A stretch of 46,622 bases of DNA from positions 1 to 46,622 of the IMG/VR virus record IMGVR_UViG_3300035698_007752, one strand, 5' to 3'. Both the position numbers and the translations under genes were made by a program. Of the stretch, positions 10,435 through 46,622 are shown in pieces. Every line of letters starts with the position of its first letter. Positions within the stretch are counted from its first letter, which is position 1. The DNA comes from a virus. Below the pieces are notes generated by a model, which saw nothing but the letters and a program-made list of their open reading frames with translations, searched no databases and was not told the DNA's origin.

Positions 10435-11198
<764 letters not shown>

Positions 11199-14210: not shown

Positions 14211-14915
14211 TTAACTCAAGTCTTCTGCCTTTTGTTGGTAGGCAATTCTGATGTATGCTTTTTGTTTCTTATTAAGTTTCTTGACTGCCTTTGACCGTTT
14301 GATAGTTTTAGCTACCTCATCTAAGTCTTTCTCAGTCTTAGCTAATTCAATAGCTTTTGTAAAGTCCATGATAGCTGCAAGCTCTTTCTTATTCAGTACT
14401 ACTTTATCTTCAACTGTTTCTTCATCTTCATCCTCATCTTCGTCCTCGTCTTCATCTTCATCCTCGTCGTCATCTTCTTCTTCGTCGTCCTCATCGTCGT
14501 CGTCGTCTTCTGCTTCGTCATCATCGTCATCTTCATCTTCGTCGTCATCTTCTTCCTCATCATCATCTTCGTCTGTATCTTCATCTTCTCCATCTTCGTC
14601 TGTATCTTCATCTTCTCCGTCTTCGTCCTCGTCTTCATCTTCATCCTCGTCGTCCTCATCTTCTGAATTCATTTCTTGTAAGAACTTTTCATATTCATCT
14701 TTGCCTGCTTGAATAAGTTCTAAAGATTTTGATAGAAACTCTGCGTAGACATTATCAATGTCTTCAACTGGTACGTCCTTGATTGTAATTACACAAGGTA
14801 GGTCAGCTGTTTCAAACTTAATTCCTCCATGTGCATCGTCGCTAAACTTATGAATAGCTCCGCATTTGATATCTGCTACTAAACCTTTTGCAGCAGATGC
14901 TTTTTTCTTTGCCAT
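14211..14915 (-). CDS. acidic-tract protein, first gene of replication operon
   Basis: 234 residues. A beta-rich N-terminal ~60 residues (LVADIKCGAIHKF, PCVITIKDVPVED) is followed by a helix. Next comes an Asp/Glu tract of about 85 residues (from ~84) broken only by occasional G, T or A, and a helical, lysine-rich C-terminus (ELAAIMDFTKAIELAKTEKD). Acidic tails occur in phage ssDNA-binding proteins, so an SSB-like role is possible, but here the tract is internal. It lies just downstream of a strong terminator, so a promoter or antitermination step should act between 14915 and 14986. Confidence 0.7.
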   Translation of the reverse strand: MAKKKASAAKGLVADIKCGAIHKFSDDAHGGIKFETADLPCVITIKDVPVEDIDNVYAEFLSKSLELIQAGKDEYEKFLQEMNSEDEDDEDEDEDEDEDGEDEDTDEDGEDEDTDEDDDEEEDDDEDEDDDDDEAEDDDDDEDDEEEDDDEDEDEDEDEDEDEDEETVEDKVVLNKKELAAIMDFTKAIELAKTEKDLDEVAKTIKRSKAVKKLNKKQKAYIRIAYQQKAEDLS

Positions 14916-17110: not shown

Positions 17111-17552
17111 ATCCATTTCTGATACTATATCAACCGTATTAAAATTTATGAGAAAAAAAATACGTTACCCCTTAAGATCTGAGTATGAATGTATAGTATC
17201 AGGAATGGATATCTCTATCCCCCTCCTAGCCTCGATAAGGAAATATCATAAGTAGTATTGGTAACTTACGAGTAGGAGCAGATAGAGAAAATGATGTAAC
17301 TATATCTGAGTATAGAAAAATATACTCGTACTGTAAGATCGCTAGTATATATTCCGTATAGTATAATTACATCATTGCTGGTATCAATTGTTATTATGTT
17401 TACTTATTTTATTAAAGCTAAGTAATAACACTTGAGTATTTGCTTGGAGTTTTTTGATTGTCGTTTTTGTTTTGCTTTTTATCCTCTTTATAATTAACAA
17501 CTATTTATTTTAGGCCTTTGAAAGAGCGCAATCGATACCAGCAACGATGTAA
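17111..17552 (-). ncRNA. candidate large ornate non-coding RNA
   Basis: 442 bases with no plausible gene but many long inverted repeats. H1: 17111-17130 with 17191-17210 (20 bp). H2: CTCTATC 17213-17219 with 17281-17287, CTCCTA 17223-17228 with 17273-17278, and an inner 8-bp stem 17231-17239 with 17265-17272. H3: 17290-17304 with 17362-17376 (14 of 15). Inside H3 a perfect hairpin GAGTATA/TATACTC lies at 17308-17327. H4: 17367-17390 with 17529-17552 (22 of 24). H3 and H4 use the same middle segment and cannot form together. The mismatches in H3 and H4 become G-U pairs on the minus strand, the direction of the flanking genes; H1 favours plus. It lies between the genes at 17553 and 17088. Confidence 0.55.
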
Positions 17553-18089
17553 CTATTTGATTTTTAAAAGTGCATACTTTAGTTTTTTATTTGTTCTATT
17601 ATAATTTTTCTTTCTTCTTCTTATCTTTCTCAATTCTTTTCTATTACTACATATAATAATATCTTCATCATCTCCTCTTATCCATGAACCATATTTCTTA
17701 GTAAGTCTAGTAAGTCTCTGTTGTTCTTTATATAACTTGACTGGATCAATTGATCTTGATCTACCCAATACGATTGACTGTATAGATGGTATTTCTACTA
17801 TGATCTTTAGACCTAGACTCATTCTCTTATCATTTATTTGTATTTGAGTATTGATAATAGTATCAGGAGATTCTCTTCTTGAGAAACCTTTTCTTTTAGA
17901 CTTAACTTGTGAAGTATCTCTTAGTCTCTTCTTCTCTTTTACTTTCTTTTCTTTAACTTCTTTATCTTTGAATTTACTAACTATAAAGTCTTGACCATTT
18001 GACATTCCCTTTTGCTTCCTTCTTAGTTTACTCTTCTTTTCATTTTCATCAATGACTTTGTTTGTAGTCTTGTTGATTAAGTAATACAT
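17553..18089 (-). CDS. YYLIH-domain paralogue 2
   Basis: 178 residues. The first ~42 (MYYLINKTTNKVIDENEKKS, LRRKQKGM, FIVSKF) match the shared domain of the proteins at 15023 and 18902. The remainder is basic. After a Lys/Arg-rich linker, residues ~85-165 may form a second small domain (IQINDKRMSLGLKIIVEIPS, LVKLYKEQQRLTRL-like helix, WIRGDDEDIIICSNRKELRK). The stop TAG directly abuts helix H4 of the structured RNA candidate. It is the first gene after early promoter 18124-18169. Confidence 0.7.
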   Translation of the reverse strand: MYYLINKTTNKVIDENEKKSKLRRKQKGMSNGQDFIVSKFKDKEVKEKKVKEKKRLRDTSQVKSKRKGFSRRESPDTIINTQIQINDKRMSLGLKIIVEIPSIQSIVLGRSRSIDPVKLYKEQQRLTRLTKKYGSWIRGDDEDIIICSNRKELRKIRRRKKNYNRTNKKLKYALLKIK

Positions 18090-31159: not shown

Positions 31160-31196
31160 GGAGAGGGGGTTCTCCTCTCTCCTATATTTTTTATTA
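31160..31196 (+). terminator. rho-independent terminator after capsid gene
   Basis: GGAGAG (from 31160) pairs with CTCTCC (ending 31182) around a G-rich/TTCT loop, followed by TATATTTTTTATT. It ends or attenuates transcripts right after the capsid gene, so capsid mRNA would exceed that of the tail genes. Confidence 0.8.
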
Positions 31197-31218: not shown

Positions 31219-31797
31219 ATGTCACAAGTTAATTGGGCTAACCTCTTGCAACAAGACCGATGCAAAGCATTGGGTGTACCTTGGACAGACCAAGAACATA
31301 AAGCTATCAGGGTAGAAGGTATTCCAGCTGAATACGTTCGAGCTGGTATTCTAACTCGAGAGAAATATGATAAGGTGAAAAAGAGAGAAAAGAAAGAAGG
31401 AAGAAAATTAGATACTATGGCACTAGAAGAACTTCAAGAAAGAGCAACTAAACTCGAAGTTACTTATGCAGGCATTACGCCAAGAGAAACTTTAATCGAT
31501 CTGATTCAAAAAGCAGAACGATTAATCGAAGAAGGTATCGACGTCAATGATGGTGACGACGATGAAGATGAAGACGAAGATGAAGAAGATGAAGAAGGAG
31601 AAGACGAAGACGAGGACGAGGACGATGAAGAAGAGGATGGGGAAGAAGAAGAAGAAGAGGACGAAGAAGAAGAGGAAGAAGAAAAACCAAAAGCAAAGAA
31701 AAAGAAAAAAACAAAAGTAAAAACAAAAACAAGAGTAAAAGGCAAGAAAGCCAAAGGAAAGAAAAAATCAAAAAAGAGAAATAGAAACAAACGATAA
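31219..31797 (+). CDS. late polyampholyte protein: acidic tract then Lys tail
   Basis: 192 residues. The first ~110 are helical with a SAP-like C-terminal piece (MALEELQERATKLEVTYAGI, then TPRETLIDLIQKAERL). Next an Asp/Glu tract of about 45 residues, then a final ~35 residues of Lys/Arg/Gly. The same acid-then-base design as the early protein at 10434-11198, but in the late operon. It may be packaged with DNA or anchor to the head; function unknown. In phage head operons this slot often holds a head-completion protein. Confidence 0.7.
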   Translation: MSQVNWANLLQQDRCKALGVPWTDQEHKAIRVEGIPAEYVRAGILTREKYDKVKKREKKEGRKLDTMALEELQERATKLEVTYAGITPRETLIDLIQKAERLIEEGIDVNDGDDDEDEDEDEEDEEGEDEDEDEDDEEEDGEEEEEEDEEEEEEEKPKAKKKKKTKVKTKTRVKGKKAKGKKKSKKRNRNKR

Positions 31798-31853: not shown

Positions 31854-32540
31854 ATGAGTGATAAAAAATTTATATCTATAATGTGTATCATCGGGTTATT
31901 AATAGTTACAGTCGCATTTAATATGCATAACCCTCTAGTTACTAACGCTGCTTACACTCTGGAATCTACACCAGACACTAGAGATGTTAATGTTAATGTA
32001 ACAGTTAATACTAACGGTGATTCATGTAACTGTACTGAAGCAGAACCTGTAGAGGATTTTGAAGGTGGAGGTACTTCTCATTGGTCGGGTAATATTCAAG
32101 CAGTAGATATCGAAGCTACTGGTGATCTTACAGTCGGTGGTACTTTGAAATATCAAGTAGCTAATACTGCAGTAAATCAAACTGCAGCAACTTCTACTGT
32201 AACCTTAACTTCTTCAGATTCTGGAAAGACATATTCTCTTTCTGGTACTGGTACTACAATTATGCTACCAGCAGTAACAGCTACTGGTTCCATCTTTAAG
32301 TTCCAAGTTAAAGGAGCAATGGGAGTAGCTAACATGGAAGTACATTCAGCAGAAGGTACTAACATTGAAGGTTCTCTAGTTGTTGCTGGTGCTGTAGTAG
32401 ATTGCGATGGAAAAAGTCAAGTCAACTTCATAGTTGATGGGGAGAACATTGGAGACTTCTTTGAAGTAGAATCTGATGGTACTCAATGGTTACTAGGTGC
32501 ATCAGGTGCACTCAGTGGTTCAAAGCTTACATGTACTTAA
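31854..32540 (+). CDS. exported, beta-rich fibre-like protein
   Basis: 228 residues. The N-terminal hydrophobic segment FISIMCIIGLLIVTVAFNMH (~5-24), after MSDKK, looks like a signal anchor or signal peptide. A Cys pair follows in DSCNCTEAE. The C-terminal ~130 residues are a Ser/Thr/Gly beta structure (LTSSDSGKTYSLSGTGTTIM, then ENIGDFFEVESDGTQWLLGA), resembling C-terminal modules of virion fibres. First of four late proteins with export signals. Acts at or beyond the membrane, or on the particle if the segment is retained. Confidence 0.7.
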   Translation: MSDKKFISIMCIIGLLIVTVAFNMHNPLVTNAAYTLESTPDTRDVNVNVTVNTNGDSCNCTEAEPVEDFEGGGTSHWSGNIQAVDIEATGDLTVGGTLKYQVANTAVNQTAATSTVTLTSSDSGKTYSLSGTGTTIMLPAVTATGSIFKFQVKGAMGVANMEVHSAEGTNIEGSLVVAGAVVDCDGKSQVNFIVDGENIGDFFEVESDGTQWLLGASGALSGSKLTCT

Positions 32541-32544
32541 CTCG

Positions 32545-32663
32545 ATGATATCTCTTACTCATCATTAACTTGGTGAGTAGGGATATATCATTAGTTACTC
32601 AATACTTGCTACTTACCTATAGGCGACTCGAGTAATTTGCTCGGGTGTAAGTAGCAAGGTATT
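32545..32663 (+). ncRNA. tandem long hairpins between late genes
   Basis: S1: 32545-32561 with 32574-32591 (7 + 3 + 6 pairs with a small internal loop). S2: 32601-32616 with 32647-32663 (16 pairs, one bulge), plus an inner 7-bp stem 32626-32632 with 32640-32646. G-U pairs in both favour the plus strand. No U-tract, so more like a processed or stabilising element than a terminator. It fills the gap between 32540 and 32698. Confidence 0.6.
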
Positions 32664-32697
32664 TATTAATTAATAATATAACTTTTAAAAAAAAGCT

Positions 32698-33714
32698 ATG
32701 GAGAAACAAACTAAAATTATTGCAGCCATCGTAACAATAGCAATGGTTGCACAAACACTCTCTTGCATTTATCTTGTTGCTGTTCTTTCAAGTAACAATG
32801 TACAGCAAGACTTCAGCGGTGGAGGAGGTAACATTCTTTCTCTTCAAACAGATGATGTTATACCAAGACAAGTCTCATCAACAAATATCAGTGCTACTAA
32901 GACTGCACTAGACGTTACTCTACCAGGAGGAACACAAGGTGCTCCAATGGATAACGTTACTGACTTAGCACTTGCTACTAGTTCTAGTGGTTCTCTAGCT
33001 ACTGGTACTTATTACTTTGTTCTAACATCAGTCGATGGTACTGGTGGAGAGACACTTCAATCTGATGAAGTAACATGTAGTCCAATAGGAGAAGGATTAA
33101 CAGGTGCACCAGTTGGATGTACTGCTACACTTACAGTAAATCCTCTAGCAGTAAGTACAAGATTATGGGTTGCAACTTCAACTGGAGTTTACTACGGTTA
33201 TGTCGCAGCTACTAGTACAACATTCGTTGGTTCTTTAACTTCACTAACTGCTGCAACAATTCCAGTTGCAAATACTGCATTCGATACTTTACCAATTGCT
33301 AGATATAAAGCTACACCACCAACATTGGTAGATGGACAAGTTATAGCTTTATTGTTAGATATACTTGGTAATATTAAAGTTACAATGGCCACAGTATTAG
33401 ATTATGTTAATGACTCAATCACTACTTATAGAGCAGGAAACTCTTATAGTTATGTTGCCGCACCTGCCGCGAATACAGTTGTAAAAGCTACAGCAGGTAC
33501 TTTATCTAAGATTATTGTTGGAGCTTATGTATCAGGTGGAACAATCGAATGTTCAGATCATGCTACAGATGGTGATGGAAATGTAAAGATATTTATAACA
33601 CAAAATTCATCTACATCTACAATGCCAATGGTATTTGATATTAATGCTACATTCGCTACAGGGATCACTTGCGACACAATCGGTTCAACACAAGTAACAT
33701 TTTTATATCGTTAA
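32698..33714 (+). CDS. exported or membrane-anchored beta-rich protein
   Basis: 338 residues. N-terminal segment IIAAIVTIAMVAQTLSCIYL after MEKQTK is a signal anchor; TLSC is not a good lipobox. After a Gly-rich linker (FSGGGGN) comes a Ser/Thr-rich, fibronectin-like middle (ATGTYYFVLTSVDGTGGETL, then CTATLTVNPLAVSTRLWVAT). The C-terminal ~100 residues resemble a small beta domain ending TQVTFLYR. It could be a surface fibre, or a secreted decoy or adhesin. Confidence 0.7.
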   Translation: MEKQTKIIAAIVTIAMVAQTLSCIYLVAVLSSNNVQQDFSGGGGNILSLQTDDVIPRQVSSTNISATKTALDVTLPGGTQGAPMDNVTDLALATSSSGSLATGTYYFVLTSVDGTGGETLQSDEVTCSPIGEGLTGAPVGCTATLTVNPLAVSTRLWVATSTGVYYGYVAATSTTFVGSLTSLTAATIPVANTAFDTLPIARYKATPPTLVDGQVIALLLDILGNIKVTMATVLDYVNDSITTYRAGNSYSYVAAPAANTVVKATAGTLSKIIVGAYVSGGTIECSDHATDGDGNVKIFITQNSSTSTMPMVFDINATFATGITCDTIGSTQVTFLYR

Positions 33715-33734
33715 TTTAATAATAAAATAAATAT

Positions 33735-34034
33735 ATGAGATTTAAAATAACAGAAGTTGATGTAGATGCAAACAATAAAGTTGCTGTTAAAGTAGATTAC
33801 ATCAAAAATGGCGTAATAATTAAAGATGTTAAGTATTACGAGAATACAGAAACACAAGCTAACATTGTAAAAGATATTAAATCTACTTCTCCTAGTGATG
33901 ATACTTTAGAAGAAGAAGCTACAAAATTAGCAGAAGAAACAAAGACAAATAGCCTTATTGAAAAATTAACTACTGATTTAATCGGTGTAGTTAAAACATT
34001 TGATCCTGCAAACTTTAATAATGAAGAATTATAA
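33735..34034 (+). CDS. small hypothetical protein
   Basis: 99 residues. Beta-rich first half (FKITEVDVDANNKVAVKVDY, then IIKDVKYYENTETQANIV), helical acidic second half (TLEEEATKLAEETKTNSLIE). No signal peptide. Four bases before the LamG protein start. Confidence 0.6.
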   Translation: MRFKITEVDVDANNKVAVKVDYIKNGVIIKDVKYYENTETQANIVKDIKSTSPSDDTLEEEATKLAEETKTNSLIEKLTTDLIGVVKTFDPANFNNEEL

Positions 34035-34038
34035 TAAT

Positions 34039-36075
34039 ATGAAAAAGAAATTAACAATATTAGCACTCTCAACACTAGCAATACTATTGGTAAGTTCTTA
34101 TATTATTGCAGGGGATAGAGAGAATATAGTAGCAACCTCAACACCAAGAATGGCTATTGATAATGAGGCTGTTAGTAGTTTGTTGTTTGATGGGAGTGGA
34201 GATTATGTAAATATTGGTAGTTCGACAACAATTAATAATACTTCATCATTTACATTCTCAACATTAATCAATCCATCAGCATTTAGTAACACTTTCTTTA
34301 TAAAAGGTAGGGGAGGTGTGAGTGGTTATGGTTTAAAGATTGGTTCAGGAGGTGGGTTAAATATTACAAAGAATGGTGTTATAGATTTAACAACAACAGT
34401 TAAGGATTTTGAAATAGGGGAATGGTCTTTAGCAACAGTAGTATTTAATGCAGATAATACAATAGATGTATATGTAGATAGTGTTTTAGCACATAGCTAT
34501 AGCAATACATCAGCAATAGTGAGTAGCGAAACATTAAATGGTTACATTGGTGCAGATGCAAATGGAGCGGGTGTTTTATCAACATTTTTTAGTGGAAAAA
34601 TAAAAAATACAATGATTTGGAATAAAATATTAACACAAGCAGAGATTACAAATTTATATTATAACAATATAATACCTACTGAAAATCTTTCACTTAATCT
34701 AGACCTAAACGAAGCCACAGGCACCACAGCCTTTGACACTTCAGGAAACTCTAACAATGGAACTATCACAGGATCTATATGGTCAACAGACGTACCTAGC
34801 AAAGCAAGAGCAACAACTACAACAAGACAAGTAGTAGTAGATGATAAGGCTAGTTTGTTGTTTGATGGATCAAATGATTACATAGAATTGCCAAAAATAA
34901 ATGCCGTAGGAGAAAGTGATTTGACTTGGGGCGGTACATTCTTAATGACGGAAAAGGCAAGTGATGATTTATTTTCAAGACCAGCAGGAGTTTCTACAAG
35001 AATTGAAATAACAGCAGGTGGGCAATTTAGTTCCGATATAGGATTAACTACTACAAGCATTACTGGCGTATCTGGAGGAAGATATGAAATAGGTAAATGG
35101 TACCAAGTATATTCAGTATTAGACTCTGGTACTTTAAACTTATATGTGAATGGATTATTAGTAGCAACAGATGCTACTGGCTCAGGAACAGTAAGCCAGG
35201 ACGTTAATCAATTCTGGAATATTGCAACGCTTAACGGTGGGGCTTTTTCAAAAATATATTGCACTGAAGCAAAGATGTATGTTGGAACTGCACTAACAGC
35301 AACCCAAATTTCTGATTTATATTACAATAATATAACACCAACAACAGGATTAGTTATGAACTTACCTCTAAACGAAGGGGCAGGAGCTACAGCATACGAC
35401 ACATCAGGAAACTCAAACAACGGAACAATAACAGGAGCTACATGGAGTTCAGACACACCATCACAAAAAAGAAAAGTAGTTAATGGTAATTTAATTGAGA
35501 ATGGAGATTTTGAATATGCACCACCTTTTGTTGCAGTTCAGACATCGGATGGTTGGATTGACGGAACAGCTAGTGGTGGTGGAGCTGGTGCGAATATAAA
35601 TCCAATAAAATGGTACTTAAATTTAAACGGAACATCAGATGTACAATTTGCAACTTCAACAACATATTCTGGAGATTATTCTTTAAGATTGTCTACAAGG
35701 GATACAAATACAGCTTTTATAGAAGTACATTATAATGATACAGGACATTATTCTAGTGGTTTAGTAGTAGAACCTTCAACTTCATACACATTAACTCATT
35801 GGATGAAAACAGATTATGTTAGTGGAGATTCTGGCGATGGTGCATTGATTGCGGTACCTCAAGGAGACGGGCAAGGAACAGGTGTTACAACTTCTAATAG
35901 TACAAAAGTAAAAACAACAACAGGTTGGACTAAATATACTACAGTATTTACAACCAATTCAGCTACAAGAGAAGTTAATATCGAACCAAGAATATATGGA
36001 CACACAGGCACAGGAACACTAATAATGGACGCATGGTTCGATGACATAGTATTAAAGAAAACATCAGACTTATAA
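34039..36075 (+). CDS. exported protein with two LamG domains and a CBM-like C-terminus
   Basis: 678 residues from the ATG at 34039. A signal peptide (MKKKLTILALSTLAILLVSS, cleavage probably near IIAG) precedes two concanavalin/LamG domains: SLLFDGSGDYVNIG to LNLDLNEATGTTAFDTSGNS (~45-245) and SLLFDGSNDYIELPK to MNLPLNEGAGATAYDTSGNS (~271-470). Both end in near-identical SGNSNNGTITG, so the pair arose by duplication. The C-terminal ~190 residues (LIENGDFEYAPPF onward) resemble a carbohydrate-binding jelly-roll. It probably binds glycans on the host or another surface. LamG-rich secreted proteins are frequent in Patescibacteria and their viruses as I recall them. Confidence 0.8.
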   Translation: MKKKLTILALSTLAILLVSSYIIAGDRENIVATSTPRMAIDNEAVSSLLFDGSGDYVNIGSSTTINNTSSFTFSTLINPSAFSNTFFIKGRGGVSGYGLKIGSGGGLNITKNGVIDLTTTVKDFEIGEWSLATVVFNADNTIDVYVDSVLAHSYSNTSAIVSSETLNGYIGADANGAGVLSTFFSGKIKNTMIWNKILTQAEITNLYYNNIIPTENLSLNLDLNEATGTTAFDTSGNSNNGTITGSIWSTDVPSKARATTTTRQVVVDDKASLLFDGSNDYIELPKINAVGESDLTWGGTFLMTEKASDDLFSRPAGVSTRIEITAGGQFSSDIGLTTTSITGVSGGRYEIGKWYQVYSVLDSGTLNLYVNGLLVATDATGSGTVSQDVNQFWNIATLNGGAFSKIYCTEAKMYVGTALTATQISDLYYNNITPTTGLVMNLPLNEGAGATAYDTSGNSNNGTITGATWSSDTPSQKRKVVNGNLIENGDFEYAPPFVAVQTSDGWIDGTASGGGAGANINPIKWYLNLNGTSDVQFATSTTYSGDYSLRLSTRDTNTAFIEVHYNDTGHYSSGLVVEPSTSYTLTHWMKTDYVSGDSGDGALIAVPQGDGQGTGVTTSNSTKVKTTTGWTKYTTVFTTNSATREVNIEPRIYGHTGTGTLIMDAWFDDIVLKKTSDL

Positions 36076-36087
36076 TTAAATAAATAT

Positions 36088-36147
36088 ATGAAAAATTTTT
36101 TATCACTAATAATAATCTCATTATGGGAGCAGGTATATTTGAAATAA
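36088..36147 (+). pseudogene. 19-codon remnant with signal-like start
   Basis: MKNFLSLIIIS begins in a standard AAATATATG leader but reaches TAA at 36145. A +2 shift after about residue 11 would give IMGAGIFEISYLHD before another stop. Either a truncated exported gene, a real tiny membrane peptide, or an assembly indel. Confidence 0.35.
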
Positions 36148-36188
36148 GTTATCTACATGACTAAGTTAATTATTAATATAAATCGCTT

Positions 36189-36488
36189 ATGGCAATTCTA
36201 ACAGCAATCATGCTCGCATGTATTTCTCAAGCCGTGAAATTAATCATGAGAGTATCTGGAGTCTCAAAGAGGGCTTCAATGTATATCGTTTTTGGTATAC
36301 TATTCATTTTAACATTAATCTTTACTGCTGGTAAAACTACAGGTTTCATTACGCAAGAAACAATTACACTAGCAAGTACAATCTTCTTCGGAGCAATCGG
36401 TGCCTACGAAATGCTACTGAACAAGACAGGTCTTGACAGTCTCATGAAAAACATTACTGAGATAAAGAGATCTGACGACAAATCTTGA
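36189..36488 (+). CDS. holin-like membrane protein
   Basis: 99 residues with two clear transmembrane segments (SMYIVFGILFILTLIFTA and ITLASTIFFGAIGAYEMLL), separated by a short loop, plus an amphipathic N-terminal segment (ILTAIMLACISQAVKLIMRV) that may be a third. Charged C-terminus (ITEIKRSDDKS). Size and topology fit a class I/II holin. First of a three-gene lysis block with 36496 and the papain-like peptidase. Confidence 0.7.
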   Translation: MAILTAIMLACISQAVKLIMRVSGVSKRASMYIVFGILFILTLIFTAGKTTGFITQETITLASTIFFGAIGAYEMLLNKTGLDSLMKNITEIKRSDDKS

Positions 36489-36495
36489 TCGTCAC

Positions 36496-36777
36496 GTGGA
36501 CGTATCAGAAATCATACAATTAATAATATCGGTTGCAACATTAGTTGGTTTAGTCATAGGTTTTTATAAATACTTTAGAGATCCAGATGTAAAAGCCCAA
36601 GAAGAAATCAAATTGATTAAGCAAGGTTGTCTCCTTCGGCACGAGACAATCGATAAGAATATTGTATTAATTAAAGAGAATCATCTTAAGCACATTGAGA
36701 AAAGTATATCTAATATGCAAGGAGATATCAAAGGTATTCTTGCTGTGCTAGAATTCTTAAAAACTAATAAAAAATAG
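36496..36777 (+). CDS. membrane protein of lysis block, GTG start
   Basis: 93 residues. One N-terminal transmembrane segment (IIQLIISVATLVGLVIGFYK) and a charged, helical C-terminal tail (IKENHLKHIEKSISNMQGDI). GTG start 7 bases after the holin-like stop. Such proteins are found as second holins, antiholins or spanin-like components; the single Cys (KQGCLLRHE) is not a lipobox. Role inferred from position. Confidence 0.65.
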   Translation: MDVSEIIQLIISVATLVGLVIGFYKYFRDPDVKAQEEIKLIKQGCLLRHETIDKNIVLIKENHLKHIEKSISNMQGDIKGILAVLEFLKTNKK

Positions 36778-36780
36778 ATT

Positions 36781-37776
36781 ATGAACAAAGCAACAGAAGT
36801 ACTGTTGAAGCAGTATCATACTATTTCAACATTAAACGTTAAAGACAGAGGAGTTGATTTAGATTCAGAAGTAAAAGCAGCTGGACCAAGAGACTACCAA
36901 TACGCAGATCATTTTGAAGCTGACGTATTTGGAGCAGTTCTCCCAAGCACTTTCCTTAGAACTCTAAATCAATTACCAAGGTTTCCATTCCAGAATTCTA
37001 TACTCAGTTGCGTAAGTAGTACTTGTACATTCATCAATTCTTATAATTCAAAGAAAGAAGGTAATGATGTATTCCTTGGATGGAGATACCCATACTCTCA
37101 GGTACCACATTACGCTGGAGGTACAAGTGTTCGGGATAATCTAAACATTCTAAAGAAGAAAGGACAATGTGAGAATAACTTTCTACCAGAAGATAAATAC
37201 TTCTTAGGTGAAAGAGCAATGCAAAATCCTAAGTACATTTCACATGATGCTCATAGGAACGCTAAAGCTTACAAGATTAAAGCTTACTACTTTCTCAAGA
37301 CATGGAGTGAAGTAGAAATGAAGAGTGCAATACTTAATGCTCCTATTGGTATTGGACTTTGGGTAGGGTACAATTGGTACAGGACTCCTACTTCTCAGCC
37401 TATACAATTTGATGGGCATAAGAGATTCGGTCACTTAGTCTCAATCGTTGGCTGGACAGAGAAGGGTTGGTTAATGGCAGATTGGGACGGGAGAGGAATT
37501 AAATTATTAAGTTATAAATATCCATTATCATTAGCTTTCGCAATAAGAGATTTGAGCGATAAGCTTAAAGGCAAATCTATGAAACCATATAAATTAGAAA
37601 ACACAAGTCGCTTATTGGTTATTCTACCTAATGGTAAATATCAATTCATATCATCACCTACCCAATGGAGAGCATTGAATGAGAAAGGATTATTACTTGG
37701 AGCAACTCAGATAATGAAAGAAGAGGATCTTAAAAAATTAACACTCGATGAAGAGCCAATCATCGTAGCAAAATAA
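36781..37776 (+). CDS. papain-like (C1) cysteine peptidase, candidate endolysin
   Basis: 331 residues. The papain tetrad is visible with exact spacing: Q71 and C77 in FQNSILSCVSS (six apart, as Q19-C25 in papain), H218 in FGHLVSIVGW, and D234 in LMADWDGRG (16 after the His, as H159-N175). The Asn is replaced by Asp. N-terminal ~60 residues may be a pro-region. C-terminal ~90 residues are an extra small domain (LVILPNGKYQFISSPTQWRA). Position right after two small membrane proteins makes it the best endolysin candidate, cutting peptide cross-links or an S-layer. A head-maturation protease is an alternative, but it is far from head genes. No signal peptide, so a holin would be needed. Confidence 0.8.
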   Translation: MNKATEVLLKQYHTISTLNVKDRGVDLDSEVKAAGPRDYQYADHFEADVFGAVLPSTFLRTLNQLPRFPFQNSILSCVSSTCTFINSYNSKKEGNDVFLGWRYPYSQVPHYAGGTSVRDNLNILKKKGQCENNFLPEDKYFLGERAMQNPKYISHDAHRNAKAYKIKAYYFLKTWSEVEMKSAILNAPIGIGLWVGYNWYRTPTSQPIQFDGHKRFGHLVSIVGWTEKGWLMADWDGRGIKLLSYKYPLSLAFAIRDLSDKLKGKSMKPYKLENTSRLLVILPNGKYQFISSPTQWRALNEKGLLLGATQIMKEEDLKKLTLDEEPIIVAK

Positions 37777-37777
37777 T

Positions 37778-38965
37778 ATGCAAGAAATATTATATTCAGA
37801 TCTAGCATCTGAGCTACAGGGTCAGTTAGGATCTACTGGTAATATTAAAGTACCTACTTCTACACAACGTGCAATCTTCAATAGAGTATTAGATGATTTA
37901 TCTTTATACGCTAATTGGAAATTCTGCATACGTAGAACAAACTTTAATTACCTACCAGACCTGACCGAGTACAATATGAGAAGCTACGTTGGTCTACAAG
38001 ATTACAAGTCTCCCTATCTATTAGGTGGAATTGGGGTTGTAGATGATAAGAGCTTTCATCCTGGAAATAACAGAGTACGCAGAGAGGCTAACAATAAGCT
38101 AAGTTCTTCCTTTAATAGGTTGGCTCCAACTATGCTTGATGGAGATCATTACTTATTAGTTAAGATGAACCAAGGTCATTCACTAAGGTTAGCTTCTCTA
38201 GATTCTCCTACTGAAGATGGAGAATGGGAAAAGATCGGTGATGCTGAAGCACCAGCCACAGATAATGTAGAATACAGACAAGGATCTGCTTCTCTGAAGT
38301 TTAGAGCAGACACAGATTTAGCAACTGGATATGCTGGTATAGAAAATTCAACAAGGATCGCAGCAGATCTCTCAGACTATGTAGATGCAAGTTCACACCT
38401 AGTTAAAATCTACATACCAGCATCTGGAGTTACTAGTGTTACAATATACTTTGGCTCAAGTACTACTGCATACTGGGCAGTCTCAGTTTCTACACCGATT
38501 AATAAATCTTCAATTCAAGTTGGATGGAATTACTTTAAATTTGACTGGGAGAATGCTACACAGATTGGTTCACCAGATTCTAGTAATGTAAAATACTTAG
38601 CAGCTAGATGTAATTATGTCTCTGCTACTTATACGGATAATGCATTATTCAGAATTGATGACTGGACTATTAACCAAAGATTTCAATTAGACTTTGATTA
38701 CTTTTCTTCTTACATGGTAATTGATACTGATGGAAACTGGAAACAAAGATTCACAGAGACTACAGATTACTTTGCTGGTCCAAGAGATACTATGATTGCT
38801 TTATCTGCTATGGCTTTCAACCAAGCACTTATCGCTAGTAGGAGAATTAGTAAAGATGAGAAGAACGAAGCAAGACTTAGATATACAGAATTGAAAGCTA
38901 GGATGAAACATAACTATGGACAGAGTCAACAAAGAGGTCCTAAGAAAATTAATATAAAAAGATAA
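37778..38965 (+). CDS. head-tail connector/tail hub A with inserted sugar-binding-like domain
   Basis: 395 residues. N-terminal ~90 (LYSDLASELQGQLGSTGNIK, then IFNRVLDDLSLYANWKF) and C-terminal ~70 helices (MIALSAMAFNQALIASRRIS, then EARLRYTELKARMKHNYG) form the adaptor type seen before the tail hub in podoviruses. Between them, residues ~145-300 (EYRQGSASLKFRADTDLATG, VTSVTIYFGSSTTAYW, YFKFDWENATQI) look like an inserted carbohydrate-binding jelly-roll. Starts one base after the peptidase stop, overlapping reading is coupled. Likely sits below the portal. Confidence 0.7.
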   Translation: MQEILYSDLASELQGQLGSTGNIKVPTSTQRAIFNRVLDDLSLYANWKFCIRRTNFNYLPDLTEYNMRSYVGLQDYKSPYLLGGIGVVDDKSFHPGNNRVRREANNKLSSSFNRLAPTMLDGDHYLLVKMNQGHSLRLASLDSPTEDGEWEKIGDAEAPATDNVEYRQGSASLKFRADTDLATGYAGIENSTRIAADLSDYVDASSHLVKIYIPASGVTSVTIYFGSSTTAYWAVSVSTPINKSSIQVGWNYFKFDWENATQIGSPDSSNVKYLAARCNYVSATYTDNALFRIDDWTINQRFQLDFDYFSSYMVIDTDGNWKQRFTETTDYFAGPRDTMIALSAMAFNQALIASRRISKDEKNEARLRYTELKARMKHNYGQSQQRGPKKINIKR

Positions 38966-38969
38966 CTAT

Positions 38970-40760
38970 ATGTCTCAAGTACTACAAAGAACAAAATTCA
39001 AGGGAATGTTCACTAAGAACCCAGTTACTAAGAATCACCCAGACACAGCATTCCTTGCTTGGAACGTCAAGATAAATGGAGAGGGGGTAGAACCAGTTAA
39101 GGGCTTCTCTCAATTCGGTGGTTCTGCACCAGCTTCTGGTCAGGCTATCATCGATGCGTTCACATTTACTTTAACGTCAGGTGAAGAGATTCCAATAAGA
39201 ATCAGAAAGGCTTCTGCTGAATGTGTTGTTGAATGGTTAGATTCTAATAGCAATGAGTGGTTCATTCTTCTACCTGGGTTATCAATAGCAAATCATTTCT
39301 CATTCTTTGATTTTAATACTAGTACTTCAAATGGTTTATACTTTGGTAACGGTCTACAAAACTATTCAGTATGGACTGGAATAAAAACAATACTTACTGC
39401 TGCAGTTACTGCTGCTGATACAAAAGTATATGCAGACATTACTGGCTTCCCTTCTTCTGGTACTATTATCTATAATGGAATAGAGATTGCATACACTTCA
39501 CTTGGTGCAGATCACTTCGTAGTTGGTAGTGCTCATGCTTCTATTGGAGCAACTGATGGGGTAGCAATAGCAGTTGACGATGCTACATATTCAGGAGTTG
39601 CTTTATCTAAGGTTATGATCTCAGCACAGAATAGAGCATGGCTCGTAGACGAAGATGACCCTAATGCTTTAGAGTATTCAGTTGAAGGAACTGCTACAGA
39701 TTTCACAGTTGATTCAAATAGAGCAGGAGCTGGTATCGAAGACTTCCCAATTGTTGGTGGAAGAATTACTGGGTTAGCAGCAAAGGACGATTACATATTT
39801 ATATTCAAAGAGAAAACTCTTATCTTATTCAGATGGGAATATCCAACTTCTATTACTAAGACTCCAGCATTCAAACATGTAGTAATGGGAGCAGACGTTG
39901 GAGCAATAAGCCATAGAGGTATTGCTAATGCTGGTAGTGAAATACTATACGTAACAAGGAACGGTATAAGATCTTTATCTAGAGATCTCTCGACTGACGA
40001 TTGGAATACTGACCCATTTACTAATATCATAGAACCTTCAATCAAGAATTTTGTATTTGATGAAGATTCAGTATCAGTCTACTATGAGAAAGAAGATGTA
40101 TTCTTATGTGCATGCAAATCTGATTCAAAGCAATCTAAGAATAATAGAGTTATAGCAAGATGGTATTACACAGATGCAGATGCTGAAGGTAACACAGTTA
40201 GAAAAAGTGGATTCTCTATATTAGATTGGACAGTAGATTCATGGTTCATCTACGGTGGTACTTTATACTTTGGTTCTTCAATGGATGGAGTAACATACAA
40301 AGCATTTGATGGTTATGGTAAAGATGGTACAACTCTTAAATCTATATACGCAGATAATAGAAATGATTATGGTTCAAAGAAAATAAAAGAAGCAGAATCA
40401 TACCAGGTCTTTGGATTAATCAAACCTGGTACTGAAATAGAATACGAAGTTGTATATGATGGAGGTAAACAAGCATCACAATACTTTACAATAAAAGCTG
40501 ATGCATCATATGTAACACAGAGTGCATTAAAAACTCTTGGAGCATTTAAGCTCGGAGAACAATTACTCGGTGGAACATTAGAAGACTCTGAAGATCTATT
40601 ACTATTTGACTTTACTAAAGAGTTACAGAACCAGAACTTCTATGACATACAGATAGTTAGAACACAGAGTAAGAATGGTGGATTCTTTAAGATATTCTTT
40701 GAGGGTCTAGTAAATCCAAACGAGGGATTTGATATACCATTAGACACATTCGATGATTAA
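38970..40760 (+). CDS. tail hub/stabilisation protein (P22 gp10 or T7 gp12-like)
   Basis: 596 residues, beta-rich, beta-propeller-like: repeated short strands from EPVKGFSQFGGSAPASGQAI through RAWLVDEDDPNALEYSVEGT, IVGGRITGLAAKDDYIFIFK and GAISHRGIANAGSEILYVTR. Residues ~140-200 (YADITGFPSSGTIIYNGIEI) form an inserted small domain. This is the layout of podoviral nozzle/tail stabilisation proteins. Four bases after the adaptor gene. No enzyme motif seen. Confidence 0.75.
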   Translation: MSQVLQRTKFKGMFTKNPVTKNHPDTAFLAWNVKINGEGVEPVKGFSQFGGSAPASGQAIIDAFTFTLTSGEEIPIRIRKASAECVVEWLDSNSNEWFILLPGLSIANHFSFFDFNTSTSNGLYFGNGLQNYSVWTGIKTILTAAVTAADTKVYADITGFPSSGTIIYNGIEIAYTSLGADHFVVGSAHASIGATDGVAIAVDDATYSGVALSKVMISAQNRAWLVDEDDPNALEYSVEGTATDFTVDSNRAGAGIEDFPIVGGRITGLAAKDDYIFIFKEKTLILFRWEYPTSITKTPAFKHVVMGADVGAISHRGIANAGSEILYVTRNGIRSLSRDLSTDDWNTDPFTNIIEPSIKNFVFDEDSVSVYYEKEDVFLCACKSDSKQSKNNRVIARWYYTDADAEGNTVRKSGFSILDWTVDSWFIYGGTLYFGSSMDGVTYKAFDGYGKDGTTLKSIYADNRNDYGSKKIKEAESYQVFGLIKPGTEIEYEVVYDGGKQASQYFTIKADASYVTQSALKTLGAFKLGEQLLGGTLEDSEDLLLFDFTKELQNQNFYDIQIVRTQSKNGGFFKIFFEGLVNPNEGFDIPLDTFDD

Positions 40761-40776
40761 TAAATTAAAATAAATT

Positions 40777-42672
40777 ATGAAAAGAATAATCACATCTGTA
40801 CTGTTGTCGTTCTTAATCTTTATGACAGCAGTACCAGCAAATGCAAGTCTCTTCGAATTCTATAGAGAGTACGATCAACCGTTACCTTCTGTAGATGCAA
40901 GAGCACCACTATATAACAAAGCTATAGCTGGCGATGTATACAGTGGAACATCAGATCAGAATAATCGATTAGAAGATTATTTAAGATCTCAACAAAGTGG
41001 TACAGATTCCTTTGGTGGAGTTAAACCATTTAGACCATCTGGGTACTCTTCTACTATATCTTCTTCACTAGCAGAAGAGGGAAGTGAAACGGAGTTAACA
41101 GTTAACTCGATCACACTCCCAGATGATACAACATTAGCATCTACAACTTACGGTGATCTCTTAATCCTAACAGTAGGAGAAGGAGAATCTGAAGAGAAGA
41201 TTGCAGTATCAAGTCTTAATGTAAGTACTCTTACTTTTACAATCGTAACGAGAGGACTAGCATACGGTTCTTATACTGAAGTAGATGATAACAAGCATAG
41301 GCATCTACCAGGTGAGAGAATATACGTATCAGACGATGATCACTTTATGAATCAGCAATACGTATCACTAGACTCTACAGAAACTATAGCAGAGCAATGG
41401 ACATTCACAGCATCTCCTATTGTACCAACACCAGCTTCAAGTGATACTACTTATGCAGCAAGTGTAGGTTACGTTAATGACGTTGCTACATCTGGAGTTG
41501 CAGTAGCATCTAAAACAATTAGTGGAAGATCAGAACATTCGACCGCAAGAGAGATGGCATCGAGTACTGCAACTGGTAGCACTGGTTCTGGATTAGTAAT
41601 TACTGCAGAAGCTTCTGGTGTCTCTGCTGTAGAAACTAGCGAGACTCTAGATTCTTACGCAGATAGCTACATCGATAACTCCTCTCAGAGTTTATCGCAA
41701 GGTCAAGCACTACTAAGAGGTCAGTCATTTATGGCTAGTTCTTCTTATTTATCTACTGCTACATTCTATCTTAAAGTCGCCTTAGGCGCACCTACTGGCA
41801 ATATGTATTCAAGGCTATATGCTCATACTGGAACGTTCGGTTCTTCTGGGAAAGGTACTGGCTCTGCTCTTGCCTCGTCGACCTTAATAGATGTATCGAC
41901 GATTACTTCTAATTATGTAGCATATACTTTTACATTTCCTACAGGTCAACAGTATGAGATGACTGCAGGTACTCCCTATGTCATTACAGTAGAATGGGTA
42001 GGGTCTGGTGTAGGAAAGCAAATAGCAGTTGGGATGGACGTAACGAGCCCAGTGCATTCTGGTAATGCATCATACAAAACATCTGGTGGTTCATGGGCTG
42101 CAGTTACTTACGATCAACCTTTCGTAGTAATAGCTACTACAAAACATACAAATGTAGTTACAGAACTAGATGGTAAAATATCTCAAGACTTCGTAGACTT
42201 TACAGAAGACATGAGCTTTACGGGTGAACTAACTGGAGCAGGTATAGTTGGAGAAGTTATAGCTTATGCTAGTTCTTCAGTTCCTACTGGTTGGTTAAGT
42301 TGTAATGGTCAATCAGTTTCTTCTACTACATACTCAAGATTGCTTGGAGTAATTGGTACTACATTTGGTTCTGGAAGTAATACATTTAAAGTTCCAGATC
42401 TAAGAGGTAGATTTATTACAATGGCTAGTACTACCCAGTCAGAATTTGATAATTTCGGGGAAACTGGCGGGGCAACTTCTACAATTTTAACAGAGGATCA
42501 AATGCCAAGTCATACGCATGGTGACGTATGGAGCGAAGGAGGTAGTGATGTTATTACTAAATCTGGTACTCCACTTATAACTTTCGATGGAACTTCAGCT
42601 TCAACAGGTGGAGATGAAGCCCACAGCAACCTAGATCCTTATATAGTATTACAATATCTAATTAAATATTAA
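40777..42672 (+). CDS. tail-collar fibre protein with Sec signal peptide
   Basis: 631 residues. N-terminal signal peptide: MKRIITSVLLSFLIFMTAV then PANA with an AxA site, so cleavage after A23 is expected. The middle is a Ser/Thr-rich beta-fibre with coiled segments (~60-490). Residues ~492-631 are a phage tail-collar domain: GEVIAYASSSVPTGWLSCNG, FGSGSNTFKVPDLRGRFI, LTEDQMPSHTHG, and NLDPYIVLQYLIKY at the very end. A collar fibre normally assembles in the cytoplasm, so a cleavable signal is unusual. It probably recognises the host; placement after the tail hub supports a receptor-binding fibre. Confidence 0.85.
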   Translation: MKRIITSVLLSFLIFMTAVPANASLFEFYREYDQPLPSVDARAPLYNKAIAGDVYSGTSDQNNRLEDYLRSQQSGTDSFGGVKPFRPSGYSSTISSSLAEEGSETELTVNSITLPDDTTLASTTYGDLLILTVGEGESEEKIAVSSLNVSTLTFTIVTRGLAYGSYTEVDDNKHRHLPGERIYVSDDDHFMNQQYVSLDSTETIAEQWTFTASPIVPTPASSDTTYAASVGYVNDVATSGVAVASKTISGRSEHSTAREMASSTATGSTGSGLVITAEASGVSAVETSETLDSYADSYIDNSSQSLSQGQALLRGQSFMASSSYLSTATFYLKVALGAPTGNMYSRLYAHTGTFGSSGKGTGSALASSTLIDVSTITSNYVAYTFTFPTGQQYEMTAGTPYVITVEWVGSGVGKQIAVGMDVTSPVHSGNASYKTSGGSWAAVTYDQPFVVIATTKHTNVVTELDGKISQDFVDFTEDMSFTGELTGAGIVGEVIAYASSSVPTGWLSCNGQSVSSTTYSRLLGVIGTTFGSGSNTFKVPDLRGRFITMASTTQSEFDNFGETGGATSTILTEDQMPSHTHGDVWSEGGSDVITKSGTPLITFDGTSASTGGDEAHSNLDPYIVLQYLIKY

Positions 42673-42682
42673 TTTAACAAAT

Positions 42683-44119
42683 ATGGCTAAAGTAAAATTT
42701 GCAAAGAATATTGCAACAGGAGCTTACCAGAAATTCGGAGATAGAGACCTGACGCAAGCAGATGCTGATGCAGGCTTCGTTCCAATCTCTGAGAAAGATT
42801 ACTTATCTGGAGTTGCTACTATTGCAGAGAAAAAGAAACCAAAGGCTAATAAAAACTTACCTAACTTCGATGACTTACCATCTCTTGGTGGTACACAACA
42901 AGAAGACCCTGGTATAGCATCTTCTGATGTATTCTCGTCGCGTGCAGACTTTGATAGAAGAAGAGATGATGAGGCTAGAGATATTAGGAGAAGAAGAGAA
43001 ACACAGGAGCAACAGAAACGTACAGTTATTGAACAACAGTTTGGTGAAGTAATTGGAGAGAGAAAAGAATTCCAAGAAGAGAAGGTTAAATCTCTAGGCG
43101 GTCAATTCGCAGATAGAAGAAGGTTATCTACTGCTGCTTCTACATTCATCTCGGGTGAACGTGCTAAGATTCAAAAAGAGATTGATACTCTAGAAGATAA
43201 GAAGAGAATAGCTTTTGCTAACTTAGATCTTGATACTGAGAAACTTATTCAAGATGAAATCAATCAATGGAAATCTGACGAGAAGGATTGGATTAAGATA
43301 CAGCAAGATGCTAAGAAAACTGAGTTCAGTCAATTCATTTCTAGAGAGAATCTAGATATTGCAAGAGGAGCAGAAGGAAGGGCAGAGTCAGCAGAAGATA
43401 GAGCAATCTCTGGAGAATCTCGAGCTGAGGAAAGTCATATCCTAGACTTGATTACTGACGAATGGTCGATCATGAAAGATATACCATCTGGAGAAACTAA
43501 AGTAATTGGTGGTATAGAATTTGAAGGAGCAGGAGCAGAAGATCCATACTTCTCAAGTGCTCAAGTTGTATCGTTAATGAAAGAAATACCAGAAGGAGAA
43601 TCGAGAGAGATTGAAGCACCAGATGGTACTAAGTATTTGATCCAAGGAGTTAGTAGTGAGATCGTAACTGCTACTGATGACAGCGGTACAATTACTGGTA
43701 TCGATAAGAAAACTGGTAAGCCAGTATGGAAGACAGCATCAGGTACAGGCAAGACTAAAACTAAAGCATCAAGTACTACAATACATCTTAATGAACAGCA
43801 GTCTTCTGCATTGCAAGATGCTAGAAAAATCTTAGAAGGTTCAATCGGAGAGAATGGTAAATATGATAAAGAAGCATACAAGAATGAGAGACTAAGATTC
43901 ACAGAGATTACTGGAGATCCTAAATTATTTGATGAGCAGTTCAAGACGGGTCTAGATCGATCAGATCCAGACAATACATTATTCTTTGATAAATCAGAAA
44001 TAGAAGAAGGTGCATTCAAATATACAGAACAACAGAAAACAGGACTTATAGATCTAGGCTTCTCAGAAGAAGAGATTACTAACTATGAGAACCTAGGAAT
44101 TGATCTTACTAAATTATAA
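42683..44119 (+). CDS. coiled-coil virion protein
   Basis: 478 residues, Glu/Lys/Arg/Ser-rich. Long coiled coils at ~90-240 (RRDDEARDIRRRRETQEQQK, KEIDTLEDKKRIAFANLDLD, SAEDRAISGESRAEESHILD). Two copies of a short repeat (DEWSIMKDIPSGETKVIGGI and VSLMKEIPEGESREIEAPDG) at ~260-310. C-terminal part contains EF-hand-like acidic turns, not diagnostic. Directly before the giant virion protein, where T7-type phages carry other internal/ejection proteins; so a DNA-ejection component is likely. Confidence 0.7.
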   Translation: MAKVKFAKNIATGAYQKFGDRDLTQADADAGFVPISEKDYLSGVATIAEKKKPKANKNLPNFDDLPSLGGTQQEDPGIASSDVFSSRADFDRRRDDEARDIRRRRETQEQQKRTVIEQQFGEVIGERKEFQEEKVKSLGGQFADRRRLSTAASTFISGERAKIQKEIDTLEDKKRIAFANLDLDTEKLIQDEINQWKSDEKDWIKIQQDAKKTEFSQFISRENLDIARGAEGRAESAEDRAISGESRAEESHILDLITDEWSIMKDIPSGETKVIGGIEFEGAGAEDPYFSSAQVVSLMKEIPEGESREIEAPDGTKYLIQGVSSEIVTATDDSGTITGIDKKTGKPVWKTASGTGKTKTKASSTTIHLNEQQSSALQDARKILEGSIGENGKYDKEAYKNERLRFTEITGDPKLFDEQFKTGLDRSDPDNTLFFDKSEIEEGAFKYTEQQKTGLIDLGFSEEEITNYENLGIDLTKL

Positions 44120-44128
44120 TATATTTAT

Positions 44129-46622
44129 ATGCCTAAAACAAAAGAAGATTTAAAAAGAGAGATTGAGTCAAGGCTGAGAGAAAGAATTAAAGCTAAAAGA
44201 AAAGAACAAGAACCTGAAAAGAAAACCATTGGTGGTGCAGCTCAAAATCTCAAAGAAGATCTAGCACAATTTGGCAAAGGTTTCCTAGCTCTTGGAAGAG
44301 AATTCGTTCTACATCCATTTGGTAGTTCTAAGAAAATACTAGAGACTGGAGCTGAAGCATTAACACAAGGAGTAGTCGGTGCACCTAAAGCTGCAGGAGA
44401 ATTAATCAAGACTGCAGCATCTACTATCGATAGTACTAAGGAAATGATCGAGAACTATAAAAAGCTTAGAGCAATACCTTACAACGATCAAAAGAAAATG
44501 ATTGAAGAATCATCACAGAATATAGCAAGCAACAAGAATCTTTCACCAGCACAGAAAACACTTGCTCAATTTGGTTCAGCAGTACTTGGTGATGTAACTC
44601 ACGAAGCTACTCATCCAGTCGAGCTCATGTATGATAAACCATTTACTTTTGGTTTAGATATAATGTCTGCTGGTGGATCGAAGGTACTTGGTAAAGGTAC
44701 TAAGTTAGTTAAACCAATGCTCAAAGAAACGAAGGTAGTTAAAGCAATTGAAGATCTAGTAATTCCACAGTCTAAATTAATTAGAGCTGGTCATAAAGAT
44801 TTTGCTAGAGATGCTGCTAAGACTTCTGAGAATATCTTTAATATGCAAGAACAAGTTATTAAAAGTACAGCAGATACATTTGAAAATACATTAAAGCTTT
44901 CAGGTAAAGAAAGGTTAGATTTCTTTGAGACAATTGATAAGCTCAGAAGAGAAGATCATTTTCTTAAGGCAGTTGATCAACCAGACCTACCTCCTATTAA
45001 AGGTAAGCTAGCAGAGAGTCCTAAAGGATTTACTAAGTTAGGTACTAAGGAAATGAAAGCTAAGAACTTAAATCCTCAGATCGATTACTACAGAGATAAG
45101 TTTAGTAACGTCTGGGAGAAAGGAAGAGAGATCTCAAGGAAGGCAGTATCTGATAATCCTAAGGTACAGTCTGCTATCGATTGGTGGTTAGATAAAGAAT
45201 TACCTAAGATACAGAAAGCATCTGGAGTAGCAGATGAATATAAGATTACAAATTACCTTCATCATTTATTTCCAGAGAAAGTATCTCAAGCAGAGAAAGC
45301 TGCTAAACCATTTAAAATTAAAAGAGGATTTCTTAAGCAGTCAAAAGATGTAGCAGGATTTAGTAAAGATCCAGTAGTTTCTATATCAGCTATTAAAATT
45401 AAAACAGCAATGGCTAATATGAAAGATTCATTTATAAAAAGAACTACTAAGAAATACGGTAAAGATATCGATGCATTGAAGAACCAACTAAGAGGTAAAG
45501 TAGGACAGAAAGAATACGATGCTCTAGCTAAATCTGGTAAGCTAGAAACTGTTATCAAGAATGAATTTGGATTTGATACTTTCAATCCTTCAGATTCTGC
45601 TAAGACTATTGGTTGGTACCCTAAGGAAATTGCAGAAGAACTTAATAAGTTATACGGTAAGAATAAATTACAAGAGACATTTAATACTCTCACAAAACCG
45701 TTAGACTTTTTTAATAGGAACTGGAAACCATTAGCTACTGCAGTGAGACCTAGATACCATACAAGAAACGTTATTGGTAATTTATATAATTCTATTATAG
45801 TTGGTATGATGAATCCAACAAGGATAGTACCAGCAGCAAGACAACAGATCTCTGGTTATGTTAATGAGTTAAGAAAATCTAAAGGCACAGCAGGTAAACT
45901 AGCTAAGACATTCTTCCCAGATAAGTTAAATGATAAAGTATTACGTAATGCTTTGAAGGATGGAGTTATTGGTAGAGGATTCTTCGCAATAGATCTTCAT
46001 GACTTAGCAAAGACTGCATCGATGTCTGAAGATATTATCAAAACAATTAATAGAGTTAAGAACCCAGCAGAGATATATAAGATACCAGTACTAAGACAGT
46101 ACTTGAATATCTCAAGAAACATTGGTCAAGCATTAGAAGATAACGCAAGACTTTCTTTATACATGGATAGAATTAAGAAAGGCTCTTCAAGATTAGATGC
46201 TAAGGATTATGTTAATAAACATTTATTCGATTATCTAAGTGGCTTGGGAGAAGGAGATAAAATAATTAAGAAGTTCATACCCTTCTGGTCATGGACTAGA
46301 TTCAATACTCCACTGCAAGTTCAATCAGTTGCTACAGTACCTAGGAAACTTAGTGCTATACAAAAGATTGGTAGAGAAAAGGTAAAGGAGATTGAAGGTC
46401 AAGATGAGAACTTGAAATACTTATCAGATACTGAGAAAGAGGCTGGCTTACTTAAGGTTGGTACTACAAAAGTTAGAGGTAAAGAATTAGATAAGTATAT
46501 TAGAACTCAATCAGTATTACCTCAAGCAGATTTAATTAGGTTAGTTAATCTCATGCAACTAGATACTGACGAGCTTGGTATTAATCCGCTGTTCAGTCTA
46601 GCTGGTAGGTTAAATAAGAATA
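44129..46622 (+). CDS. giant virion protein, N-terminal part (residues 1-~831)
   Basis: Open from ATG 44129 to the window end and continuous in frame with base 1, giving 1,737 residues in total. N-terminus is charged (MPKTKEDLKREIESRLRERI). Helical, amphipathic segments follow (EFVLHPFGSSKKILETGAEA). Near residues 525-570 is RNWKPLATAVRPRYHTRNVI followed by GNLYNSIIVGMMNP, and near 710 FIPFWSWTRFNTPLQVQSV. Hydrophobic/aromatic stretches of this sort occur in large phage ejection or polyvalent proteins as I recall them. Start lies in a TTTATATG leader. The C-terminal 947 residues are described at 1-2847. Confidence 0.85.
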   Translation, partial: MPKTKEDLKREIESRLRERIKAKRKEQEPEKKTIGGAAQNLKEDLAQFGKGFLALGREFVLHPFGSSKKILETGAEALTQGVVGAPKAAGELIKTAASTIDSTKEMIENYKKLRAIPYNDQKKMIEESSQNIASNKNLSPAQKTLAQFGSAVLGDVTHEATHPVELMYDKPFTFGLDIMSAGGSKVLGKGTKLVKPMLKETKVVKAIEDLVIPQSKLIRAGHKDFARDAAKTSENIFNMQEQVIKSTADTFENTLKLSGKERLDFFETIDKLRREDHFLKAVDQPDLPPIKGKLAESPKGFTKLGTKEMKAKNLNPQIDYYRDKFSNVWEKGREISRKAVSDNPKVQSAIDWWLDKELPKIQKASGVADEYKITNYLHHLFPEKVSQAEKAAKPFKIKRGFLKQSKDVAGFSKDPVVSISAIKIKTAMANMKDSFIKRTTKKYGKDIDALKNQLRGKVGQKEYDALAKSGKLETVIKNEFGFDTFNPSDSAKTIGWYPKEIAEELNKLYGKNKLQETFNTLTKPLDFFNRNWKPLATAVRPRYHTRNVIGNLYNSIIVGMMNPTRIVPAARQQISGYVNELRKSKGTAGKLAKTFFPDKLNDKVLRNALKDGVIGRGFFAIDLHDLAKTASMSEDIIKTINRVKNPAEIYKIPVLRQYLNISRNIGQALEDNARLSLYMDRIKKGSSRLDAKDYVNKHLFDYLSGLGEGDKIIKKFIPFWSWTRFNTPLQVQSVATVPRKLSAIQKIGREKVKEIEGQDENLKYLSDTEKEAGLLKVGTTKVRGKELDKYIRTQSVLPQADLIRLVNLMQLDTDELGINPLFSLAGRLNKN
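46496..46622. repeat. terminal direct repeat, right copy
   Basis: Identical to bases 1-127; see that entry. Removing one copy leaves a 46,495-bp circular map. Confidence 0.97.

Follow-up and report, generated by a model that had tools for sequence, protein, structure and literature searches.

A predicted Sec-secreted variant of the phage tail-collar fibre and its adhesin-like companions in a small group of podovirus-like phages

In tailed phages, both the synthesis of tail fibres and their attachment are assumed to take place in the cytoplasm, and fibres of the T7 type carry no signal peptide. Passage through Sec is known for the filamentous phage proteins pIII and pVIII. The fOg44 and SAR endolysins (PMC6116005) and the T5 exclusion lipoprotein Llp (PMC9586334) are also exported by Sec. 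These precedents are lysis enzymes, an exclusion lipoprotein or the coat of extruded phages; they share the Sec route predicted for the proteins described here, but they are not tailed-phage fibres. Open-licence papers on signal peptides and tail fibres dealt mostly with lysis proteins.

Phage-type fibres with a signal peptide are found in Bdellovibrio, whose mosaic adhesive trimer (MAT) fibres combine it with an N-terminal domain rich in beta structure and with adhesive tips that vary (PMC10769870). The fibre presented below can be likened to them by description, as a phage-type fibre with a signal peptide and a variable tip, whereas MAT fibres are encoded by chromosomal genes of a predatory bacterium and not in a phage late module. 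A functional analogue, again by description, is offered by the streptococcal PblA and PblB proteins, phage tail-fibre-like surface adhesins, of which one PblB has a putative signal peptide; the PblB of S. mitis, from a siphophage of a Gram-positive host, is released by lysis (PMC4508584).

The window analysed here, meaning the whole stretch of DNA, is the 46,622-nt record IMGVR_UViG_3300035698_007752 (G000). Its first and last 127 bases are identical (1-127 and 46496-46622), so the record represents a complete circular assembly, and ORF 44129 crosses the junction to join the open ORF 1-2847 in a single protein of 1737 residues. G000 is a complete circular genome of an uncultured, short-tailed, podovirus-like phage, in which no integrase was seen. 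The late gene order is podovirus-like: terminase (24744), portal-position protein (26317), scaffold-like protein (28896), a 133-aa protein, major capsid protein (30154) and an acidic protein (31219) are followed by three adhesin-like genes (slots A to C), small membrane proteins, a papain-like protein, adaptor, nozzle, a collar fibre (slot D) and ejection-type proteins (Table 1). The names portal, scaffold, adaptor, nozzle and ejection are given from gene position and weak matches (to PHROG families for adaptor, nozzle and ejection); the portal-position protein has no PHROG match of its own and is conserved in the relatives. The succession of adaptor, nozzle and ejection-type genes with a fibre gene beside the nozzle resembles the module of T7-like podoviruses, but a signal peptide, absent from T7-type fibres, is predicted for this fibre and for the remaining adhesin-like late proteins. 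A strong terminator-like hairpin lies at 31160-31182, directly 3' of the capsid gene and upstream of slots A to D.

Table 1. Late-region features of G000 and their counterparts in two relatives (positions refer to G000 unless another genome is named; h-core, best 10-residue Kyte-Doolittle mean)
Feature	Position	Strand	Basis
Slot A, 228 aa, signal peptide or anchor	31854-32540	+	h-core 3.38; positional counterparts with signals in G002 and G004, weak sequence similarity
Slot A counterparts	G002 42890; G004 4019		signal-type start
Slot B, 338 aa, probable uncleaved signal anchor	32698-33714	+	h-core 2.88, about 25 hydrophobic residues; positional counterparts
Slot B counterparts	G002 43662; G004 3404		signal-type start
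Slot C, 678 aa, signal peptide, two LamG stretches, CBM_4_9-like end	34039-36075	+	Pfam, hydrophobicity; h-core 2.63
Slot C counterparts	G002 44215; G004 1-2015		signal-type start
ORF of 19 codons with hydrophobic start, possible remnant, weak	36088-36147	+	hydrophobicity
Two small membrane proteins	36189-36777 (36189-36488, 36496-36777)	+	holin-like by size and position only; weak PHROG match of the first
Papain-like protein, between small membrane proteins and adaptor	36781-37776		PF00112 E=0.058, under cut-off; 52% identical in G002
Tail adaptor-like protein, without signal	37778-38965	+	weak PHROG tail match; 40% identical in G002; h10 0.78
Tail nozzle-like protein, without signal	38970-40760	+	weak PHROG match; relatives; h10 0.99
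Slot D fibre, 631 aa: signal peptide, linker, conserved anchor domain, insert, collar tip	40777-42672	+	orthologues in G002 and G004; signal-less homologue in G001
Slot D predicted Sec signal peptide, residues 1-23, cleavage between VPANA and SLF	40777-40845	+	h-core 2.61, charge +2; A-x-A in orthologues
Slot D conserved anchor-type domain, residues 77-264	41005-41568	+	48-50% identical in G002 and G004
Slot D phage tail collar domain PF07484, residues 492-547	42250-42417	+	Pfam match
Slot D orthologues	G002 5926; G004 36967		signal-type start
Inner/ejection-type proteins, without signal	42683-46621 (42683-44119; 44129 onward over the junction to 2847)	+	position and weak PHROG matches

An earlier note on this DNA had reported a signal peptide or signal anchor at the start of four late ORFs (31854, 32698, 34039 and 40777, here slots A to D), and all four do open with a charged n-region and a strong hydrophobic core. 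The slot D start reads MKRIITSVLLSFLIFMTAVPANA and is followed by SLF, with predicted cleavage after residue 23 and a mature protein beginning at residue 24. The positively charged n-region, hydrophobic core and small-x-small site expected of a Sec substrate of signal peptidase I are present in this protein and in its G002 and G004 orthologues. The proposed fusion of a clean AxA signal with a collar domain was equally borne out, PF07484 being matched with E=1.4e-20 and 73.5 bits against a curated cut-off of 24. In slot C the signal peptide ends in SSYIIA, ahead of GDR; its LamG stretches match PF13385 (1.5e-26) and its C-terminus is CBM_4_9-like (E=6.5e-4, under the Pfam cut-off). These modules and the exchangeable fibre tips described below fit the surface-binding system that had been suggested. 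The start of slot A could be either an anchor or a signal with a late cleavage site (TNA before AYT), and slot B looks like an uncleaved signal anchor. A fifth signal-bearing remnant claimed at 36088 (MKNFLSLIIISLWEQVYLK) was not confirmed; it is a weak candidate, an ORF of 19 codons.

Signal calls were based on hydrophobicity, charge, conservation and a small self-made cleavage matrix. The matrix, built on 20 E. coli signals, places cleavage sites but is not specific alone, as by itself it also scored a signal-less fibre in the relative G001.

A PolB profile search led to three close viruses, G001, G002 and G004, with PolB identities of 48%, 54% and 55%. G002 and G004 share the structural genes of G000 (capsid 45-56% and nozzle 53-59% identical), and in both of them each of the four slots is occupied, at the corresponding place in the gene order, by a protein with a signal-type start; the slot region of G004 is repeated in the near-identical contig L099. 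For slots A and C the correspondence is positional, with weak or no sequence similarity. Slot D, on the other hand, is a true orthologue in both phages, being about 50% identical to that of G004 over residues 1-277 and 48% identical to that of G002 over residues 77-264. Predicted cleavage follows AIQA (before E) in G002 and SVNA (before T) in G004, so that the homologues, in which a missing signal had been named as the observation that would count against the earlier note, carry one. The N-terminal part of slot D is conserved and its tip is exchangeable, as in receptor-binding fibres: G000 and G002 have a collar tip and G004 a different, non-collar one. Together with the position of the gene next to those for nozzle and ejection proteins, tip exchange makes slot D a putative receptor-binding-type fibre. 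An AlphaFold model of the fibre N-domain was poor (mean pLDDT 46).

The third relative, G001, has early genes in common with G000 but a different structural set, and none of its 23 ORFs is signal-like. Just upstream of the ejection genes it encodes the fibre 40100, a slot D homologue (blastp against G004 in a four-sequence comparison, E=6e-8) that opens with the anchor domain itself and has no signal. A fibre profile run against 30 virus records including G001 returned nothing, a weak empty result given that blastp links G001 and G004. The fusion of signal and collar recurs in G002, while G004 keeps the signal with a swapped tip. The pair G000-G001 offers a natural comparison of phages with and without signals. 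Adjoining the G001 homologue is a fibre with collagen-like GPTGYTGP repeats (L091 17542-20000; G001 37542-40085).

Export-like starts, counted as a hydrophobic core with a net positive n-region and no later membrane segment in ORFs of at least 150 aa, were found in 11 of the 73 ORFs of G000, G002 and G004 and in 11 of 889 from 77 background PolB-virus loci (Fisher P=8e-8, in a test that pools three related phages whose ORFs are not fully independent). The capsid, portal, scaffold, nozzle and ejection proteins of the three phages have no strongly hydrophobic starts, and every long fibre-like gene in their genomes comes with a signal. In the first 50 kb of the Bacteroides phage crAss001, hydrophobic starts occur on two lysis-region proteins only. 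The fibres of MW202484, a named phage with a slot C-like fibre, carry no signal. A signal-type start is rare on the collar-domain ORFs of other viruses: of 76 whose 5' end is closed, it occurs in two, L203 (MKRVFSIILMILLLASTSFSA) and L141. In L141, an unrelated phage, the gene lies between nozzle-like and ejection-like genes, as slot D does, and may represent an independent case of a signal-type collar fibre; the nozzle of L141 has no relative except itself in the viral collection. The L219/L141 collar gene (L141 5209-6432) belongs to a GC-rich phage.

Export through Sec of the set formed by slots A to D is well supported at the level of prediction and conservation, and the fibre- and adhesin-like late proteins of these phages probably leave the cytoplasm of the infected cell. 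Cytoplasmic fibres have no signal peptide; slot D has one in all three lineages, and it is therefore filed as a variant of the podovirus nozzle-adjacent fibre and not as an ordinary member. By sequence, it is a new, putatively secreted variant of the phage fibre, and a small group of phages has it together with the same set of companions. Conserved signals restricted to the adhesin-like late proteins would mean either that virion assembly is split between compartments or that the phage uses its own receptor-binding fibres outside the cell.

The best explanation, tentative and a little short of probable, is that slots A to D are genes for Sec-secreted fibres or adhesins and that 40777 most likely provides a virion adhesin which joins the nozzle at lysis. 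Slots A, C and D, with their secretion starts (cleavable in C and D), would enter the host Sec pathway, while slot B would probably remain a membrane anchor with its domain outside. The slot D protein, a nozzle-linked fibre with a conserved N-terminal anchor domain and an exchangeable tip (here the collar), would be cleaved before residue 24, fold outside the membrane and meet the tail nozzle once lysis breaches the envelope, to be used most likely as a virion adhesin. From the signals and their conservation, the gene position, the tip exchange and the absence of a long signal-less fibre-like gene we infer the actual export and the virion fate of these proteins. The last of these observations implies a virion that either lacks such fibres or is supplied with them from outside the membrane. 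The explanation is further favoured by the enrichment of export-like starts, by core virion proteins free of hydrophobic starts, by the signal-less G001 homologue at the slot D place and by the L141 case. Fibres or tailspikes can be added in vitro to finished heads of T4 and P22, which makes the late joining of a fibre to a virion feasible. Against this explanation, we know of no tailed phage that has been shown to acquire fibres exported by Sec, virion and fibre would have to wait for lysis to meet, and receptors could be bound by the large insert of the adaptor, leaving slot D perhaps dispensable for the virion. A bolder reading, in which a lineage of tailed phages completes its virions in two compartments, with head, nozzle and ejection proteins built in the cytoplasm and all outward fibres and adhesins outside the membrane via Sec, to be joined when the cell opens, is conceivable but doubtful.

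The exported fibres might instead not belong to the virion and occupy receptors on and around the infected cell, excluding superinfection and keeping progeny off their own host or its debris. Such masking has precedents, since T5 can no longer infect cells to which its purified receptor-binding protein pb5 has been added, and is also excluded by the exported lipoprotein Llp (PMC9586334); masking would need an exported receptor binder and no further parts, and slot B does seem membrane-anchored. It is nevertheless rather unlikely, as expression with the whole late module and adjacency to the nozzle suit a virion fibre, the G001 homologue sits at the nozzle-side place without a signal, and several different adhesins seem beyond what exclusion requires. 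Distinctly unlikely is the idea that the adhesins are host-modifying cargo of the late region, re-dressing infected or neighbouring cells for attachment in the manner of PblA/PblB or of epibiont surface proteins. The LamG and CBM-like modules of slot C would suit this role, and the slot C protein has no match among 50,697 phage records. Cellular exported fibres and collar proteins also exist. In Patescibacteria, L130 751-2925 (minus strand) combines a type IV prepilin-type start with collar domains, three in tandem, and may encode an adhesin carried on pili. As predicted for 40777, the collar is placed on an exported protein, but the type of start differs and the gene is chromosomal. On the other side, late-strand location and the lack of an integrase suggest lytic use, which leaves little time for a benefit to the cell, and an exchanged tip on a kept anchor domain is typical of virion fibres.

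It is very unlikely that the hydrophobic starts are no Sec signals at all and stay in the virion proteins as membrane-active or docking helices. Slot B, and perhaps slot A, lack a good cleavage site, but the three slot D orthologues, divergent as their N-terminal sequences are, have all retained the positive n-region, core and small-x-small site, and LamG and other unrelated proteins have the same type of start. Maturation outside the membrane, coating of cells and membrane docking, the meanings put forward in the earlier note, are not separated by the sequence, although docking is the least likely for 40777, given that all three orthologues retain a cleavable A-x-A site, and suits slot B better. 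Finally, mis-called start codons or chance hydrophobic N-termini could be suspected, the prediction being purely rule-based. This is highly improbable and already largely refuted by the orthologues: 40777 starts 16 bases past the preceding stop, is free of Met between residues 16 and 191 and keeps the stretch between signal and domain in common with G004, on which grounds a wrong start was rejected, and the enrichment of export-like starts also speaks against chance.

As for the host of G000, the translation leaders are poor in SD motifs and have T at -1, a combination seen in many Patescibacteria pieces but equally in crAss001 and hence not decisive. The slot C protein has no match in 287 Patescibacteria genomes. 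A PolB search of genome contigs gave distant, mixed matches only, the nozzle profile found nothing in genome contigs, and the Bacteroidota promoter motif showed no enrichment.

Several features lie outside the late adhesin genes. An early-strand protein (4475-4951, minus) has an export-type or anchor start, as does another early ORF in G002 (17219-17698). Proteins with long Asp/Glu runs are encoded at 10434-11198, 14211-14915 and 31219-31797, two of the three ending in Lys-rich tails, and the relatives encode such proteins too. The segment 19001-21000, near the switch between the two gene strands, is very AT-rich (21% GC) and strongly skewed.
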